DNA of 64,000 nt from Paenibacillus amylolyticus. GTDB lineage: Bacteria > Bacillota > Bacilli > Paenibacillales > Paenibacillaceae. The translations under genes and the position numbers were made by a program. The stretch is taken from positions 310,001 through 374,000 of the forward strand of contig NZ_CP121451.1 in the NCBI RefSeq assembly GCF_029689945.1, read 5' to 3'. Under the pieces are notes generated by a model. That model searched no databases. It had not been told where the DNA came from and worked only from the letters and a program-made list of their open reading frames with translations. Shown one piece after another: positions 49,463-61,596 of this stretch (positions within the stretch are counted from its first letter, which is position 1; every line of letters starts with the position of its first letter).

Positions 49463-50730
49463 ATGTATGATGTCATTGTAATTGGTGGTGGATCTGCGGG
49501 CCTGATGGCTTGCGTTGCTGCCGCCGAGCATGGAGCCTCCGTGCTTCTGCTGGATAAAGGAGATCAACTGGGTCGTAAACTCGGCATCTCTGGCGGAGGT
49601 CGATGCAATGTAACCAATGCCAAGGAAACGGATGAACTCATTCGGCATATTCCGGGTAACGGGCGCTTTTTATATAGTTCGTTTCAGAATTTGGACAATC
49701 AGGGAATCATGCGTTTCTTCGAGAATCTCGGAATTGCCCTGAAAGAAGAAGACAACGGCAGAATGTTCCCTGTAACCGATAAAGCGAAAACCGTTGTGGA
49801 TGCACTGGTAGGCAAAATTGTCTCCCTCGGTGTCGAGATTCGTACCAAAGAACCGGTGAAGGAACTCATTCAGAACGGTCAGCAAGTACAGGGTGTTAAA
49901 TTGCAGTCAGGTAAAACGATCCTTGGACGCTCTGTCATTATCGCTACTGGTGGCAAATCCGTACCCCAAACCGGATCAACCGGAGACGGTTATCCCTGGG
50001 CTGAAGCTGCGGGTCACACGATTACGGAGTTGTATCCAACCGAAGTGCCTATTGTGTCTGGGGAGAGTTGGATTCAATCCAAAGAACTGCAAGGTTTGTC
50101 TTTGAGGGATATCGGTTTATCTGTTTTGGACGCCAAAGGTAAAACGGTCATCTCTCATCGCGGGGATATGCTCTTTACGCATTTTGGAGTGTCTGGACCG
50201 GTTGCACTGCGTTGCAGCCAATTTATCCGCAAAGTGCAGATGAAGTCTGGAAACACACAGGTCATCATGAGCATTGATCTGTTCCCGGAGTTATCTGCAG
50301 GCGCACTGGAAGCACAGGTTCACCAGGTATTGGAACAAGAGTCCCGCAAGGCTGTCAAAAACATACTGAAAACATGGATTCCAGAGCGCATGATTCCATT
50401 AATGATGAAACGGGCAGAGATCAGCGAAGACCTCACTTTTCACCATTTTCCCAAAGGTATGTTAAGCAACTTGTGCGGGCTAATGAAAGCTTTTACCTTC
50501 CGTGCAGACGGAACGAGATCGCTCAAAGAAGCCTTCGTCACCGGGGGCGGAATTCACTTAAAAGAGATATACCCAAAAACAATGGAATCCAAGCTGTTGC
50601 CTGGACTATTCTTTTGCGGTGAAGTTCTGGACATTCACGGCTACACCGGGGGTATAATATCACCGCTGCATTCTCCACGGGATATACGGCTGGCATGCAT
50701 GCGGCTGAATATAAACACGTTACTTTTTAA
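49463..50730 (+). CDS. BaiN/HI0933-like NAD(P)/FAD-dependent oxidoreductase (frameshifted at 50648-50652)
   Basis: About 422 residues when repaired. Rossmann motif VIGGGSAGLMA at the N-terminus, GRKLGISGGGRCNVTNA near 43, THFGVSGPVAL near 236 and C-terminal GEVLDIHGYTGGYNITAAFSTG. In the raw sequence the last motif breaks at the five-G run 50648-50652; one more G restores the end HAAEYKHVTF and a TAA at 50728. The raw frame otherwise runs to 50776. Family members are soluble flavoproteins of largely unknown substrate. Confidence 0.87.
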
Positions 50731-50788
50731 TAGAGGTTGTTCAATAATAGATATGCCCACTATATGTGGACGATGAATTACTTTAGAT

Positions 50789-51392: not shown

Positions 51393-52639
51393 TTAGGCAC
51401 GTGTAAGACGAACCCATCCTGCAATAGATAACACACAGAGTCCGAAGGCCGCCGCACCTGCAGCTGTCAGAATACCCACAATCCAGCCGAGCCAGGCCAA
51501 TCCCAGCGTGAATCCCATAACAATCCCAATCGGGATGAACAACATCCGAACCATCATTGAACCTGCAAGATGAAGCGCCTCCGAGTCATACGTAATAAGC
51601 TGAACATAATCCGACGTGGCAAAAACATCCCAGGAACGATAAAACATCACCGTCAACATGATGATTAATAACGCACACACAATAACATTGACCGGAAAAG
51701 GGGGTAATGCAACGGCTGCGATGGATAGTCCTCCAAGCTGCAAATACAATTTCATCGTGGCCGAGTTTCGAAAAAGGCTTTAAACGCAATCTCCGCTGTC
51801 CGATTTGCAATGGACCGATGACGTAACAGTTTACGCGGTTTGCGGAAGATAATAGAACGTGTTCGCGGAGCTTTCGGCTTGCTCACCGCCCGACTTAACA
51901 TTAGAGCCGTAAGCTGAAGTCTGCTCCGCAGATCCTCTCGCACATCCCCTTCGAACGTTCCCTTCATCAATAGCCTCATCTGTCCAACGGTCATCAGAAG
52001 AAGCATGATCACCCCGATTCCAAAACTGATTTTCCACGTCTGCCCATGCATCCATGATGTTGCATGAATGGTCATATAACCTATAGCAATGACGAGAGGG
52101 ATCATCCGAATCCAGCGCCGCCATCCTGTATGTCGAACCTTCGTCATATGCAGTGTTATGGCTTGCAGTGAAGCTACTGCACCGAACCAGACAGCCATAA
52201 GTGCTATCTGGAGATTCGACATCTCATAGACACGGGACCACAGAGGAGCAGTCAGTGCTGTAACCAAGATCATTTTGCCCAGATGTTGCAGACAAGACCG
52301 ATAGAGCCCATGCCTCATTAACGTGCGCATCCATAGCTGTCTTGATTTCAAAAACAATACATCCGCTTCCTCCACAAATATCAACACACCACCGGTAAGC
52401 ATAACCACATCAATCAGCCCAGTCAGCACCGGGAGTGGTAATCCTGTCGCCCATACCGGCAGCGGTTTGGTCCACAGACTCGTGTACCACCCAATCAGAT
52501 AGAGCAGACCCGGAACAAGCAGGTATACCCACACCGTCCAATCCACGACAAGTCTGAGATTTTTCATCTGTTCCCTGACGTGCTCTTTGCGTCTTCGCCT
52601 GTATAAACGAATTGGTGTATAACGCTGGGAAGTCTTCAT
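51393..52639 (-). CDS. ecsB: ABC transporter permease EcsB (frameshifted at 51771-51775)
   Basis: About 415 residues when repaired, the usual EcsB length. The first 290 residues contain several membrane helices and begin with a basic KTSQRYTPIRLYRRRRKEH. The frame breaks in KAFF: one more T in the run at 51771-51775 gives RNSATMKLYLQLGGL, joining the second frame (four more helices) that otherwise overlaps by ATGA. EcsAB affects secretion and proteolytic processing in Bacillus; the transported substrate is unknown. Follows ecsA by about 20 bases. Confidence 0.83.
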
Positions 52640-52660
52640 CTTCTCTCACCTTCTCTCTAT

Positions 52661-53392
52661 CTAAGACGTCAGTATATCGAAACAGTCAAACAAAGAGGCT
52701 TCTGGCAATCCTGCCGCTTCACGGATCTCATCCAATGTTCCTTCGGCAGCAGATCTGCCCGAAGCAATCAGAACATATCGGTCGCAGATTCGTTCAGCGG
52801 TATCCAGTACATGCGTAGACATGAGCACACCCGCACCGCGGCGACGTTCATCATCCAGTAATTGCAGAAAATCCTTGGTTGCGCGAGGGTCCAGTCCGAT
52901 GAACGGCTCGTCCACGATATAGATATCCGGCGAAGACAGAAATCCGATCATCAGCATCATTTTCTGCCGCATGCCCTTCGAAAAACTGGCTGGAAGATCA
53001 TTCCGAACGTGATCCATGCCGAAACGAATCAACAGTTCCTCTGCTCTGACGATAAAGAACTCTTCCTCCATTTCATACGCCGCGGCGGCCAGATCGAGAT
53101 GTTCCCACAAGGTCATATATTCGTAAAAAACCGGTTGCTCCGGGATATAGGCATAGCGGCCCTCTCCCCCAATCGTCACTTCATAGTTCGCATGTTCCAG
53201 CAGACCAAGCAGTGTTTTGATCGTGGTACTTTTGCCTGCACCATTTGGTCCGATAATGCCCACCAGCTCTCCTCGCGCCACATTCATTCGAATATTGCGT
53301 ATGGTTGTTTGCCCTGGCTCATATCCGGCCTCTGTAATATGTACGTCCAATATGGACTCCTGTATTTCGGTGCTTTTATATTCCGTTCCCAT
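52661..53392 (-). CDS. ecsA: ABC transporter ATP-binding protein EcsA
   Basis: 243 residues from ATG 53392; an in-frame GTG three codons upstream overlaps its GGGAG ribosome site. Walker A GPNGAGKST near residue 48, Q-loop region YIPEQPVFYEY, signature variant FSKGMRQKMMLMIGF (signature serine shown as SKGMR), Walker B IYIVDEPFIGLDP and the H-loop STHVLD. It pairs with the EcsB permease immediately downstream. Confidence 0.9.
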   Translation of the reverse strand: MGTEYKSTEIQESILDVHITEAGYEPGQTTIRNIRMNVARGELVGIIGPNGAGKSTTIKTLLGLLEHANYEVTIGGEGRYAYIPEQPVFYEYMTLWEHLDLAAAAYEMEEEFFIVRAEELLIRFGMDHVRNDLPASFSKGMRQKMMLMIGFLSSPDIYIVDEPFIGLDPRATKDFLQLLDDERRRGAGVLMSTHVLDTAERICDRYVLIASGRSAAEGTLDEIREAAGLPEASLFDCFDILTS

Positions 53393-53503
53393 ATCATTCA
53401 CTCCCTGTTCTGATCAGGTGTTTCACTCGTTCTTTAGGTTTTATTGTAATCGGGTTGCAGGTTGTATGTTTGATCATTTTAAGCATTTCAAAGAATAAAT
53501 CAT

Positions 53504-53589: not shown

Positions 53590-53883
53590 ATGAATGGTGG
53601 GGCTCAGATGAAAAAAGAGCATTCCAAAAGAAAAATTCTTTCTCGCAAAATAGTAAAAATGGGAAACAGCTTGGGCATTAGCTTACCCAAAGTTTTGATC
53701 GATAAGCTTCATGTCTCTCAGGGTGATGAGATTGAATTTATTGAAAACAGTCAGGGAGAAATCATATTAAAAAAGGTTAAACAATTGAAAATACCCGAAA
53801 ATGTAAGACCCGAAGTACTGGAAGCTTTCTACGACGTTTTTGAAGAAGATAAGGATATCTTAAATGATTTAAGGGATCGTTAA
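53590..53883 (+). CDS. AbrB/MazE-fold antitoxin
   Basis: 97 residues from ATG 53590; AGGAGG lies seven bases upstream. The ATG six codons later (MKKEHSKRK) is possible. SpoVT/AbrB swapped-hairpin domain at about 18-60: RKIVKMGNSLGISLPKVLIDKLHVSQGDEIEF. The acidic C-terminal tail PEVLEAFYDVFEEDKDIL probably wraps and neutralises the toxin. The toxin gene starts one base after the stop. Codon use is visibly more AT-rich than neighbouring genes, hinting at horizontal acquisition. Confidence 0.85.
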   Translation: MNGGAQMKKEHSKRKILSRKIVKMGNSLGISLPKVLIDKLHVSQGDEIEFIENSQGEIILKKVKQLKIPENVRPEVLEAFYDVFEEDKDILNDLRDR

Positions 53884-53884
53884 A

Positions 53885-54277
53885 ATGACTATATTCCTTT
53901 CCATTGAAGAAGTAGTAGCCGCTCACCATTTTATGATGAAAAAGATGATTCATACGGCACAAGCTGGGATTAAGGATCTTGCTTTGTTGGATTTTGCCAT
54001 AAATAGACCCCTCCAGAGTTTGTTTGGAGAGGATGCCTGCCCCTCCATATTTGATAAAGCTACTGCCTTATTAGAGTCATTGGTTAAAAACCACTGTTTC
54101 TATAACGGAAATAAACGTACAGCTTATCTTGTAACCAAGTCCTTTCTGCGAATGAATGGCTACCATCTACAGATGGAACGTAAATATGCCGTAGAATTTA
54201 TGGTCAAGATTGCCGAAGGCGAGTATACATTTGAAAAAATAGTTCCTTTATTAGAAGAACATTCAGAAGAACGCTAG
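53885..54277 (+). CDS. Doc-family (Fic fold) toxin, death-on-curing type
   Basis: 130 residues. The Fic/Doc core motif is NHCFYNGNKRTA near residue 73, agreeing with HxFx(N/D)(A/G)NKR of Doc. Doc toxins phosphorylate EF-Tu and stop translation. An upstream LSIEEVVAAHHFMM helix and ALLDFAINRPLQSLFG match the family N-terminus. It pairs with an AbrB/MazE-fold antitoxin instead of the classical Phd. ATG overlaps the antitoxin stop region (TAAAATG). Followed by a terminator. Confidence 0.88.
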   Translation: MTIFLSIEEVVAAHHFMMKKMIHTAQAGIKDLALLDFAINRPLQSLFGEDACPSIFDKATALLESLVKNHCFYNGNKRTAYLVTKSFLRMNGYHLQMERKYAVEFMVKIAEGEYTFEKIVPLLEEHSEER

Positions 54278-54296: not shown

Positions 54297-54331
54297 AAAA
54301 GAAGCAGGGGTTCCGGAGCCCCTGCTTCTTC
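54297..54331. terminator. Bidirectional terminator between toxin gene and repeat-protein gene
   Basis: AAGAAGCAGGGG/CCCCTGCTTCTT stem around TTCCGGAG(c), a convergent-gene boundary. Confidence 0.9.
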
Positions 54332-54353: not shown

Positions 54354-55914
54354 TTAGCGATTTGTCTCCACCACAGATGTAGTTTCGCTCTCAGCATCTG
54401 CATCCACGTTCAGACCTAGATCCAGGGCTCCACGGCTTTCGCTCGCAACGTTTTTGTTCACGTTACGTTCGCTGTCTTTCACGCTGTTCGTGCGTTCAGA
54501 TTGAGCCCATGTTGCACCCTCTCCTTCGGCTTTTGCGTTCAAACCCAGATCCAGGGCGCCACGGCTTTCGCTCGCAACGTTTTTGCTCACGTTACGTTCG
54601 CTGTTTTTCACGCTGTTGTTGCGTTCAGATTGAGCCCATGTTGCACTCTCTCCTTCGGCTTTCGCGTTCAGACCCAGATCCAGGGCGCCACGGCTTTCGC
54701 TCGCAACGTTTTTGCTCACGTTACGCTCGCTGTTTTTCACGCTGTTGTTGCGTTCAGATTGAGCCCATGTTGCACTCTCTCCTTTCGCTTTCACGTTCAG
54801 ACCCAGATCCAGGGCGCCACGGCTTTCGCTCGCATAGCTGCTGTTCACGTTACGTTCGCTGTCTTTCACACTGTTGTTGCGTTCAGATTGAGCCCATGTT
54901 GCACTCTCTCCTTCGGCTTTTGCGTTCAGACCCAGATCCAGGGCTCCACGGCTTTCGCTCGCAACGTTTTTGCTCACGTTACGCTCGCTGTCTTTCACGC
55001 TGTTGTTGCGTTCAGATTGAGCCCATGTTGCACTCTCTCCTTCGGCTTTTGCGTTCAGACCCAGATCCAGGGCTCCACGGCTTTCACTCGCAACGTTTTT
55101 GCTCACGTTACGCTCGCTGTCTTTCACGCTGTTGTTGCGTTCAGATTGAGCCCATGTTGCACTCTCTCCTTCGGCTTTTGCGTTCAGACCCAGATCCAGG
55201 GCGCCACGGCTTTCGCTCGCAACGTTTTTGCTCACGTTACGCTCGCTGTTTTTCACGCTGTTGTTGCGTTCAGATTGAGCCCATGTTGCACTCTCTCCTT
55301 CGGCTTTCGCGTTCAGACCCAGATCCAGGGCGCCACGGCTTTCGCTCGCAACGTTTTTGCTCACGTTACGCTCGCTGTCTTTCACGCTGTTGTTGCGTTC
55401 AGATTGAGCCCATGTTGCACTCTCTCCTTCGGCTTTCACGTTCAGACCCAGATCCAGGGCGCCGCGGCTTTCGCTCGCGTAGCTGCTGGTTCACGTTACG
55501 ATCATCGCCGCCTCTTGAATAGTCGCTCATCGTTGTACCTTCTCCCGACACATTGGCATTCAGACCAAGGCCCAGCTTGCCAGTACTGCTACGCTCAGCA
55601 GTATGGTCGGCAGAACGATCATTGTATCGGTTCGTGCTCTCTGAGGATAAGCCGGCATTAAGTCCAAGATCCAGATTCAATGCTCCGCTTGCACTGGAAG
55701 AACCTCCATGGCTACCATGGTTACCGTAACCAGTGTCACGTTGTCCTGACAGAAGCGATCCCAGTTCCAGACGCAAACCTGCATTCAGATCCAGATTACC
55801 ACTGCTGTTATTGCTATAGCTATCTGCGTAAGTTGCCTGCGAAGCTCCCAGCAATCCAGCCACCAACGTACCCGACAATACCGACAATTTTACCCAACGA
55901 TTCACTTTTTTCAT
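54354..55914 (-). CDS. Secreted repeat protein with eight near-identical 43-residue repeats (frameshifted near 55489-55491)
   Basis: About 520 residues when repaired. Start ATG 55914 (MKKVNRWVKLSVLSG) behind AAGGAG; signal peptide ends near ATYADS. A first, degenerate region has Gly/Ser/Asn-rich text with LNLDLGLNAGL and KLGLGLNANVSGEG. Then eight repeats of pattern KAEGESATWAQSERNN, SVKDSERNVSKNV, ASESRGALDLGLNA. A short tail ends SVVETNR. At about 55489-55491 one extra G breaks the frame between DDRNVN and SSYASESRG; the same junction is intact at 54838. No anchor or LPXTG seen. The gene starts 49 bases after another secreted repeat protein. Function unknown. Confidence 0.78.
54408..55439 (-). 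repeat. Eight tandem 129-bp coding repeats
   Basis: Units begin with GTTCAGAC (or GTTCAAAC) at 54408, 54537, 54666, 54795, 54924, 55053, 55182 and 55311, exactly 129 bases apart; a ninth, partial unit starts at 55440. Units differ at only a few positions, so recent expansion or gene conversion is likely. Copy number is probably variable and hard to assemble. Confidence 0.92.
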
Positions 55915-55963
55915 GATTATATACACTCCTTCTCAATTTTGGTTGAATTAACGCCAATGTTGT

Positions 55964-57268
55964 CTATGAGAAAGAGGTATATTGCGGCGGCCGTCCCGGT
56001 GGTGCCTGTGACCATTGACTGAACCCATCCGGCCGTTCCAGTCGGAAAGCAAAATGATAATCCGGCGTAACCAGACCTGTTGTTGCTCCCGGAAGTGCAG
56101 CGGCTGGAGCGGTTGCTCCACCTCCAGTTACACCTGACGCACCGGAGCTTGTCCCTGCGGAAGCATTAGCTGCTCCAGGAGAAGTTGCTGCAACAGACCA
56201 ACTTGTTGGTCGTTCGGTGCGAGGCTGTAATGGAAATGCTGCATCAGCATCGTCTTGTTTCAGATTGGCTTCCTGCTTACTCTGCACTTGTTCAGTGACA
56301 GATGGTTTAGCAGACGGCTGATCTGCGAGGAATAACTCGTTATCGGGCATACCTGCATTAACATTGGAATCCTGCGTCCGATCAGCTCCTTCCACAGGCA
56401 ATGCCTGCGGGACAACAGGTTGTTCTGGACGTACTGCGTCCTGTCCTTCCTCGTTGTTCTGTGGTGAAACTGGAGCTGCGAGTTCACTCGTATTGGAAGT
56501 TTCAACATTCGGTGTTTTGACGACCGCAGGTTGTTCCGGAGTGACTACAGGCCGTTCCGGCCTCACACTTGGAATCTCCACCTGTTCCTGATCAGGATTG
56601 AGTTCAGCGGTTACGTCTACAACTGGAACTTCTGCTCTCACAGAAGGAAGCTGGACATTTCCCTTACTCAGATCCACTTGGGATGAAGAGATATGGACGG
56701 AAGTAACTTCAGGCACATCCACCCTCACGGAAGGTAATTCAACCTTGCCCTGCCGAAGGTCCGTTTTCACAGCAGACGTCTCTGCCTTGATGACCTTGGG
56801 TACCTCTGCGGTAACGCCAGGCAAGGATGCTGTACCTTCGTTCAGGTTCACCTGACTGCTTGATACATCGGCTTGGATTACCGGTGTATCCGCCTTAACG
56901 GACGGCAGTTCGACGGTTCCCTTCTTCGCATCAATTGCAATCTCTGATGTTCCTGCCGATCCAAGCGGTGTATCTACTTTCAGCTCAGATACACTCAGCT
57001 TACCTGTCGATTCATTCGCTTTGATCGACGGAACTTCAACATCCAATAATGGTGTGGACACCGATACCGACGGAGTCAGGTTCAAACCGCCATCCGAATC
57101 ACGTGAAAGCAGATTTAGCGACAATCCGCTGGACGGTTTTTCAGAAGATATCTGAGCATCATCTGCATATACATGCGACGATCCAACCCCCAGCATCAAA
57201 GTCCCGGCAAGTATTGCCAGTGGTATGCTTCCAAGACGTACGATGGATTTTGGTAACTTTACATTCAA
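55964..57268 (-). CDS. Secreted Val/Pro-rich repeat protein of unknown function
   Basis: 434 residues. Start is TTG at 57268 with AAGGGGGTG eight bases upstream; the ATG overlapping it is out of frame. Signal peptide ends at about residue 35 (SSHVYADD). Residues 90-245 contain about six degenerate units of roughly 26-30 residues with the recurring pattern VELPSVKADTPVI and SSSQVDLSKGNV, suggesting stacked beta structure. A Pro/Gln/Glu-rich spacer follows, then a Gly/Ala/Thr-rich stretch and a C-terminus APPGRPPQYTSFS. No enzyme motif or sortase signal. It shares LxLNL words with the downstream gene and is probably co-transcribed. Confidence 0.72.
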   Translation of the reverse strand: MNVKLPKSIVRLGSIPLAILAGTLMLGVGSSHVYADDAQISSEKPSSGLSLNLLSRDSDGGLNLTPSVSVSTPLLDVEVPSIKANESTGKLSVSELKVDTPLGSAGTSEIAIDAKKGTVELPSVKADTPVIQADVSSSQVNLNEGTASLPGVTAEVPKVIKAETSAVKTDLRQGKVELPSVRVDVPEVTSVHISSSQVDLSKGNVQLPSVRAEVPVVDVTAELNPDQEQVEIPSVRPERPVVTPEQPAVVKTPNVETSNTSELAAPVSPQNNEEGQDAVRPEQPVVPQALPVEGADRTQDSNVNAGMPDNELFLADQPSAKPSVTEQVQSKQEANLKQDDADAAFPLQPRTERPTSWSVAATSPGAANASAGTSSGASGVTGGGATAPAAALPGATTGLVTPDYHFAFRLERPDGFSQWSQAPPGRPPQYTSFS

Positions 57269-57475
57269 GTTGCTTCACCCCCTTTCCGCTAATGCGTTGG
57301 TGGGACAAGGCATATGAGTTTTCCCCTAGGAATAATTAGAATACAGGGATTTCTGCCTGTTCCTCATTAAACGTGAAGGCGTTTACTCAAACGCTTTTTA
57401 ATCAAAAACTTAAAATTTGAAGTAAATTCAAACCTTCATTTCAAATGTTCAAACCTGAACAGGCCCGGCATATTT

Positions 57476-60073: not shown

Positions 60074-61596
60074 TTATTTTGAGCCTTGTGGCTGCGCTGG
60101 AGCATCTGCATCTTCGGGGACAATCAAACGTTTGCGTAGAGCAAGCGTCGTTACCCATGAGACCAGAGCAATGACAAACATAATGACAAACAGGGAGTGT
60201 AAACTTCCTTCCAGCACGCTTCTCAGTAGCGCCCACTTGTCATCGGATAGCGCTGCATCCGTATGTGGTGCGAGCAGTTCATTCAGATCACTCTCCGATA
60301 TTCCGGCCTCCGCCAGATTTTGCTCACTCGATAACGTGGAGATCCGATAATTCAACCATGTCCCAAAAGCCGCTGCACCAATCGTCTGTCCCAATGTACG
60401 CATAAACGTATGCAGTGCTGTTGAGGAACCACGTTCCTGATATCCTACGGAAGACTGCGCAATAATGGTGAATATCGTAAACGCAAATCCAAAGCCAAGA
60501 CCATAGATAAAGGTCAATATAAATAACACAGCCTGCGGGGATGTCCCCCCCACCAGAAAGAGTCCGCCCGAACCGATCGCAATGCCTGTTAAACCAATCA
60601 ATGCGGTTAACCGTGATCCAATTTTCATCAGCAGGCGACCTGCGAGCACACTACCAATAAGCCAACCGACTGACATCGGCGCGAGTAGCAATCCGGATTC
60701 CGTCGCATTTCCTCCCCGAACGCCCTGCACCCAGAGCGGCAAATAACTGGTTAGGCCGATCATCAGGGTACTGGTTAACAGTCCGGCGATATTCGCCACA
60801 CGGATGTCCCGAATTCGGAACAGATGTAGTGGAACCATAGGGGCCTGAGCTCTTTTTCCACCACAAAAAATAAAATGATAAACAGAGCGGCAACCACACT
60901 CAGTCCTACAATCAACGGAGAACTCCATGCATAATACTGCCCACCCGCCGACAGGACAAATAACAATGCGGTAATGCCCACCGTGAAGGTCAGCGCACCG
61001 ACATAGTCAATTTTGGCTGTACGTGGAGAGATATCTTCTTTCAGATAACGAAATACAAACCACATCGCGAGCAGACCAAACGGCACATTAAAACCAAAGA
61101 TCCACTGCCAGCCAAGATTGTCTACAAAATAACCGCCAAGCAGCGGTCCTACCAGAGAGGAAATGCCCCACACGGAGCTAATCCAGCCCTGGACTTTGCC
61201 ACGTTCTTCAATAGAGTAGATGTCCCCAATAATCGTAAATGTGACAGGAACTACCGCACCCGCACCAATCCCCTGAATAGCACGAAAAATAATCAATTGC
61301 TCCATATTCTGTGACAGACAGCACAAGAGTGAACCCAATAAAAATAAGGCACAGCCAATCAGAAATACAGGCTTTCGTCCATACAAATCACTGATTTTAC
61401 CGAAAATGGGCGTACTCACTGCCATCGTCAGCAGATATGCGGTGAAAATCCAGCTCAGCAGCTGTACACTCCCCAGCTCACTGACAATGGTCGGTCCTGC
61501 TGGACCAATAACGGTACCTTCAATCGCTGACAGAAATGTCGCGAGCAACAGACCCGTCAGGATGAAACTGCGCTTCAAACCTCCAGTTGCATTCAC
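60074..61596 (-). CDS. DHA2-type MFS drug exporter (EmrB/QacA-like; frameshifted at 60852-60856)
   Basis: About 508 residues when repaired, with 14 predicted helices. The first half has LSAIEGTVIGPAGPTIV, GKISDLYGRKPVFLIG and RAIQGIGAGAVVPVTFTIIGDIY, the motif C-like antiporter signature (GPLLGGYFVDNLGWQWIF). After FFVVEK one A is missing at 60852-60856; restoring it gives RAQAPMVPLHLFRIRDIR and the remaining helices. GTG start at 61596 with AGAAGGG upstream. Likely a proton-driven multidrug exporter. Confidence 0.88.

Follow-up and report, generated by a model that had tools for sequence, protein, structure and literature searches.

The window analysed here, a stretch of 64,000 nucleotides from Paenibacillus amylolyticus (contig NZ_CP121451.1), contains on its (−) strand two adjacent genes, hereafter gene 1 and gene 2, whose products, judged from their sequences, can be considered a widespread exported two-protein module, previously unnamed, with a distinctive C-terminal tag. 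Gene 1 is an open reading frame (ORF) of 434 amino acids (aa) with a TTG start (55964..57268). Its product consists of a signal peptide, Val/Pro repeats of beta type, a long low-complexity linker, a Ser/Gly-rich stretch and the C-terminal tag. The signal peptide comprises residues 1–35 (57164..57268), with the cleavage site ...HVYA/DDA placed by eye; A35 is near-invariant in alignment A1 and invariant in alignment A6. The Val/Pro repeat region (approximately residues 71–210, 56639..57058) is predicted with moderate confidence to form an open beta-meander, and the tag, GFSQWSQAPPGRPPQYTSFS, occupies positions 55967..56026. Upstream of gene 1 lies a conserved leader with a strong ribosome-binding site, GGGGGTGAAG (57269..57425). 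The gap of 49 bases (55915..55963) between gene 1 and the ATG of gene 2 at 55914 carries the conserved gene 2 ribosome-binding site GAGAAGGAGTG, and across 30 loci its spacing varies by a single base.

Gene 2 is present in the window as two ORFs in different frames. One of them (175 aa, 55399..55926) holds the ATG, a signal peptide reaching residue 30 (ATYA/DSY, by eye) and, behind it, a conserved N-terminal region with units of the LxLGLN type; the other (361 aa, 54354..55439) holds eight 43-residue repeats (...SESRGALDLGLNAKAEGES...) and the tail DADAESETTSVVETNR. A tandem array of 129 bp × 8.3 copies with 95% matches spans positions 54407..55478, and 3' of the gene a strong hairpin of 13 pairs with a T-rich tail (54298..54331) resembles an intrinsic terminator. 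An earlier description of this DNA from its letters alone (the sequence-only reading) had proposed two adjacent same-strand genes, 49 bases apart, encoding signal-peptide proteins, one of them with an array of eight repeats. This is borne out by the ORFs and their coordinates, by the N-termini, which in both proteins resemble signal peptides with sites of the AxA type, and by the array itself. Overlooked had been that gene 2 is not intact in the window, its start and repeats lying in different frames. The L-x-L-N-L words that both proteins contain are weak evidence of relatedness.

The frame break of gene 2 falls between approximately 55.4 and 55.5 kb. Relatives have gene 2 as one uninterrupted frame, for example of 433 codons from the ATG in locus L040, and P0050 reads across the stretch where the window gene breaks. 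Three other window genes (49463-50776, 51393-52639 and 60074-61596) are broken likewise in comparison with all six relatives compared, and the completeness of the window genome is 95.84% as against 99–100% for most relatives. The likeliest cause of the break would be a sequencing or assembly error, because gene 2 is intact in relatives, three more window genes are broken and completeness is lower. That gene 2 is instead a true pseudogene in this strain, with a biological break and a decaying locus, we consider rather unlikely. The break is present in the assembly, and loss of the pair does occur, as in genome G020 with its truncated gene 1 and missing gene 2; however, the eight near-identical repeats remain open past the break, and three further genes broken against all six relatives are what an error-prone assembly would be expected to contain. 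The presence of further broken genes in the window also suggests, as a side observation, an assembly prone to indels.

Gene 1 was found in 32 of the 75 genomes of the genus, and gene 2 lies directly downstream of it in the window and at 30 of the 31 loci of relatives within the genus. A profile search across the whole family gave a gene 1 match in 49 of 394 genomes, 46 of which were kept after the ORFs outside the genus had been read; weak matches in G081, G163 and G236 (loci L102, L108, L112 and L114) were excluded, since on inspection they represent coiled-coil or unrelated ORFs. Elsewhere in the family gene 2 adjoins gene 1 in 21 of 24 genomes. In locus L109 (genome G278) the module is doubled in tandem, in the order gene 1-gene 2-gene 1-gene 2. 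An evenly drawn set of 299 genomes of the class includes 27 from the window's family; among the 272 others, gene 1 was identified on reading in six (G469, G471, G483, G583, G603 and G627). These six were kept from 12 matching genomes outside the family; four others (G466, G539, G560 and G575) were chance matches dropped on reading and two (G581 and G589) were not counted, and the reversed tag control matched 2 of the 299 genomes. In the family of G627 a narrower tag pattern matched 23 of 101 genomes, against none of the 101 for the control, and all 22 matches that were read are real gene 1 homologues (the 23rd, G757, was left out of the count).

In total, the genomes with gene 1 number 81 and belong to five families of Bacilli (56 from the window's family, G020 included, 22 from that of G627, and G469, G583 and G603), and the tag is found in 80 of the 81. 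The co-occurrence of the two genes beyond this strain, which the sequence-only reading had left to a survey, is near-strict: gene 2 adjoins gene 1 in 52 of the 56 family genomes and at all 17 loci read with their flanks outside it (15 genomes, four other families). The 52 include G086, whose gene 2 ORF starts late and has a signal peptide that looks incomplete. In 24 loci of the window's family, genes 1 and 2 are the only specific genes shared between distant genera. Among the other neighbours, generic parts of ATP-binding cassette (ABC) transporters form the largest group and are found at 8 of the 24 loci, and smaller groups of 3–4 loci each represent close relatives or common protein types. 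At two loci, L111 and L113, the gene 1 homologue is followed, in place of gene 2, by an ORF whose end, KRQQLN...LDELINLFYR, resembles that of a Spo0E-type phosphatase.

Both genes are real and under purifying selection, because in nine pairs of relatives the ratio of nonsynonymous to synonymous substitution rates (dN/dS) is 0.20–0.39 for gene 1 and, over the initial 140 codons, 0.09–0.28 for gene 2. Among 18 divergent gene 1 proteins aligned, the sole invariant residues are the Q, the W and four P of the motif QWxx[AP]PPxxPP, which in members outside the close clade lies 5–31 residues from the C-terminus. The exception is G103, in which the ORF continues for 105 residues past the tag and gene 1 looks frame-disrupted; it was nevertheless retained in the counts. 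As a DNA pattern, used as an exact match that would miss variants, the tag was found in 61 of the 394 family genomes, compared with 6 for the reversed control and 5 for the pattern shifted by one base. The genus accounts for 31 of these matches, and the other 30 comprise, on reading, 24 real gene 1 homologues and six chance matches (G118, G210, G240, G271, G283 and G373), which were dropped. Real matches occur once per genome in the window's family, with the tandem copy of G278 as the only exception. Outside the family, G603 has two matches, both real on reading; two matches are also present in four of the 23 matching genomes in the family of G627, with both copies read only in G759. A role of the tag as a general sorting signal is disfavoured, since there are only one or two copies per genome. 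Substrates of Pro-Pro endopeptidases were also considered and left as a lead only. The gene 1 of genus g17 has a different repeat, TVGGVSDSVNQTVNG.

Gene 2 evolves by gain and loss of repeats, with a fast turnover: the estimated repeat number ranges from 1 to 10 in 24 complete relatives, 16 of which have lengths that fit a single exact ladder with steps of 43 residues. The window protein ends in SVVETNR and, like the complete copies of its genus, lacks LPXTG. In genus g17, where the gene 2 repeats include LVNVDLDEVLGESVHVGVLENE, the protein of 7 of 9 genomes ends in LPQTG or LPKTG with a membrane segment, that of the remaining two being cut off or masked, and LPXTG-type anchors also end the gene 2 products of L233 and L234, which represent two further families; TIGR01167 scores over its cut-off in L176 and just under it in L178. 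The absence of a sortase signal, claimed by the sequence-only reading, holds for the window genes and fails for the wider family. In three loci (L222, L224 and L226) a GH25-like domain replaces the long repeats, with matches to PF01183 at E values from 0.0013 to 4.7e-05, below Pfam's cut-off. As far as sequences allow, gene 2 can be regarded as encoding an exported protein, in some lineages located at the wall, with an exchangeable body, while the tag of gene 1 and the pairing are fixed; for this reason gene 2 is read as scaffold or cargo and gene 1 as its tagged partner.

The pair has no convincing relative among the Pfam, NCBIfam and PDB sequences searched, in agreement with the sequence-only reading; this concerns sequence and makes no claim about a known fold. 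Neither of the two findings that would have refuted that reading, a confident family match or a lack of co-occurrence outside this strain, was obtained. Apart from the TIGR01167 and GH25-like matches, neither Pfam nor NCBIfam gave a convincing family for the window proteins or for 20 relatives. The YadA-head profile PF05658 matched the window repeat ORF by its whole-protein score only (8.1e-06, 26.5 bits against a cut-off of 25 bits) and was rejected as a low-complexity or repeat artefact, because no single stretch passes and the best one covers 13 residues; the MSCRAMM-type match NF033845 to the same ORF (21.4 bits, cut-off 999) was set aside as a low-complexity effect. The score of Chlorosome_CsmC for gene 1 of L178 (27.3 bits, cut-off 26.3) is similar in kind to that of the YadA head, and DUF3572 for gene 2 of L220 (48.2 bits, cut-off 25) has no stretch that passes alone. 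Profile searches of the PDB gave no match at E<=1 for gene 2 and, for gene 1, a best E value of 0.058 that falls on the low-complexity linker. From approximately 5.8 billion proteins the 7999 candidates with most shared words were scored, and 49 of them, the window's own included, are gene 1 relatives; those with a named source are labelled 'hypothetical', 'unknown' or 'uncharacterized' and are nearly all from Paenibacillus. The divergent alignment A4 used as a query added three more gene 1 relatives, and the repeat part of gene 2 matched one partial protein. No SLH domain was detected by profile scans in the window proteins or ten relatives, which speaks against the S-layer-like membership suggested earlier. 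A plasmid search with two relatives gave no match, and text searches, mostly of papers outside subscription journals, found no paper with peptide words from the tag or the repeats and none on a two-gene secreted operon of Bacillales.

Of 42 gene 1 upstream regions from outside the close clade, 10 contain, within 250 nucleotides (nt) of the gene, an element of the form GTGATCC-N16-CGT (L097, L099, L103, L107, L109, L110, L169, L173, L220 and L221), and these 10 represent two families. It occurs with a spacing of 16 only (10–22 were tried) and nowhere else on either strand in the 904,780 bases of scanned loci; since it was derived from the same sequences in which it was counted, this count is a description and not an independent test. 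A stricter form with CGTRTC gave seven matches in 11 whole genomes, four at the module and three elsewhere, and none with the reversed control. The three elsewhere give no support to a wider regulon: two (L184 and L190) fall within coding sequence and one (L187) just 5' of an unrelated exported-protein ORF. The element resembles promoters that are read by extracytoplasmic-function sigma factors. A second element, for example CCGACAAAAA...CGAATG, was found in the same way from the sequences counted; in the other large family it precedes gene 1 at 6 of 11 loci and is absent from the rest of the 250,018 bases. Neither element was seen in the gene 1 leader of the window's clade. This leader is strongly conserved in 24 sequences, in which none of 29 pairs changes on both sides, and it has no Rfam match at the gathering score. 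A scan with Rfam of 43 loci, 42 of them with gene 1 (L108 lacks it), detected a c-di-GMP-I-GGC riboswitch in L100 (6945-7038), 68 nt upstream of gene 1 and on the same strand.

We consider genes 1 and 2 to encode, with a probability of roughly one half, two exported structural proteins that act as a pair at the cell surface or in the matrix; an exported structural or surface role, already suspected in the sequence-only reading, remains the most natural one. Export signals, gene pairing, invariance of the tag, LPXTG in relatives, repeat turnover and purifying selection are apparent at the level of sequence, and for the window's species we infer the surface or matrix role. The locus would be a self-contained operon of two genes that are probably co-transcribed. 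Gene 2 would provide a repetitive scaffold of short alternating segments of presumed beta type (GALDLGLN) and hydrophilic linkers, turning over fast in copy number and sequence. In some lineages this scaffold would be fixed covalently to the wall by sortase, and in the window's lineage it may be released or held without a covalent anchor. Gene 1 would be the partner, in which a long flexible linker carries the beta-repeat region and the Trp/Pro tag forms the end, and the tag may act as a docking handle to assemble or hold the scaffold.

Several observations weigh against this interpretation. Gene 1 is found without gene 2 in G092, G095 and G103, and G020, the exception within the genus, has no gene 2 and has lost most of gene 1. 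Most gene 2 members lack LPXTG. The AlphaFold model of gene 2 has a mean predicted local distance difference test (pLDDT) score of 34.7, which is unusable, and was kept out of the fold comparison; in that of gene 1 the block means of pLDDT over the repeat part are 63–77 in one of five models, and its single fold comparison was taken as a hint only. A well-placed riboswitch is present in only one of the 42 gene 1 loci, in a genome without gene 2, and of two further c-di-GMP riboswitches in the vicinity of the module one is divergent (L223) and one lies approximately 3 kb upstream (L232). Finally, passages of a proteomic study of the P. amylolyticus matrix name S-layer proteins and a peroxidase and not genes 1 or 2 (PMC11985002).

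An extended form of the structural reading, tentative and on balance doubtful, sees in the pair an undescribed extracellular assembly system of Bacilli, in which the tag would be a private docking peptide and the two proteins would build a surface polymer, controlled by a dedicated sigma factor through GTGATCC-N16-CGT and in some species by c-di-GMP. The tag might bind either the repeats of gene 2 or, in a second copy of gene 1, the open beta-sheet. The G-box of CPAP/SAS-4, an open beta-sheet that binds proline-rich motifs, is among the closest known systems. Wall anchors and variable repeat numbers also recall the stalks of wall-anchored adhesins. Gene 2 could thus be the wall stalk of an adhesin or ligand-binding surface protein, its length setting the reach, with gene 1 aiding export or anchoring, and the GH25-like cargo at three loci would suit such a function. 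We regard this as unlikely, since most members have neither LPXTG nor a recognisable binding domain. Gene 2 of g17, L233 and L234 does share a signal peptide, repeats and an LPXTG anchor with the LPXTG repeat adhesins, from which the pair differs by the unanchored protein of the window's lineage, the second exported and tagged protein alongside and the lack of any known ligand-binding domain.

The anchors of relatives also argue against spore-surface proteins of the coat or exosporium made in the mother cell, a distinctly unlikely alternative. Families of this kind are mostly known as spore formers, and the charged Ser/Arg/Asn-rich repeats recall coat proteins such as CotB and CotG, but signal peptides of the Sec type, as borne by both proteins, are unusual for coat proteins of the mother cell, and the upstream elements, compared by eye, do not look like sigma-E/K promoters. 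A short conserved C-terminal end on a freely evolving chain resembles a mature peptide, so that gene 1 could encode the precursor of a secreted signal or a bacteriocin-like peptide, the tag being the active part and gene 2 a carrier or immunity partner. This is highly improbable: the 24 loci share no locus-specific gene for an exporter, a protease or immunity, the generic ABC parts at 8 of them aside; peptides of this sort usually diversify, unlike the tag, which stays invariant from genus to genus; and the length and repetitiveness of gene 2 hardly suit a carrier or immunity partner.

Among known systems the TasA/TapA matrix fibre system of B. subtilis is likewise an exported two-protein, probably structural surface pair of Bacilli encoded in one compact locus. 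The difference is that neither genes 1 and 2 nor the window genome has a PF12389 match, and that no SipW-like peptidase or other third gene recurs beside the pair in the 24 loci, for which no SipW profile was run. TasA and TapA are not known to have such repeats or a C-terminal Pro/Trp tag. TasA (PF12389) is present in 3 of the 75 genomes of the genus, none of them with gene 1, numbers too small for significance. With functional amyloids built from short repeats, such as curli (CsgA/CsgB) and Fap, the pair shares a major repeat protein with a companion and alternating hydrophobic residues in each repeat; it differs in having no curlin repeat match in Pfam scans, in its Gram-positive export and in the lack of a visible dedicated secretion pore.

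The pair is flanked in the window by a gene for a major facilitator superfamily transporter and, past the terminator, by a toxin-antitoxin pair. The latter (53590-54277) consists of a MazE/AbrB-type antitoxin and a Doc/Fic toxin, faces gene 2 in convergent orientation and is separated from it by the terminator hairpin; TIGR02609 scores just under its cut-off and TIGR01550 over it. Genes for an EcsA/EcsB-like ABC transporter are located nearby (51752-53401), and the EcsB match spans positions 2–260 of a 383-position profile, consistent with a frame break.

An exported pair that is conserved in five or more families of Bacilli and carries an invariant tag absent from the searched copies of Pfam and NCBIfam offers a concrete, unexplored handle on how these bacteria build their surface. 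A tag present once or twice per genome and a near-private promoter-like element lead to sharp, falsifiable predictions. As 72 of the 75 genomes of the genus have no TasA match, the pair makes the composition of their matrix testable.

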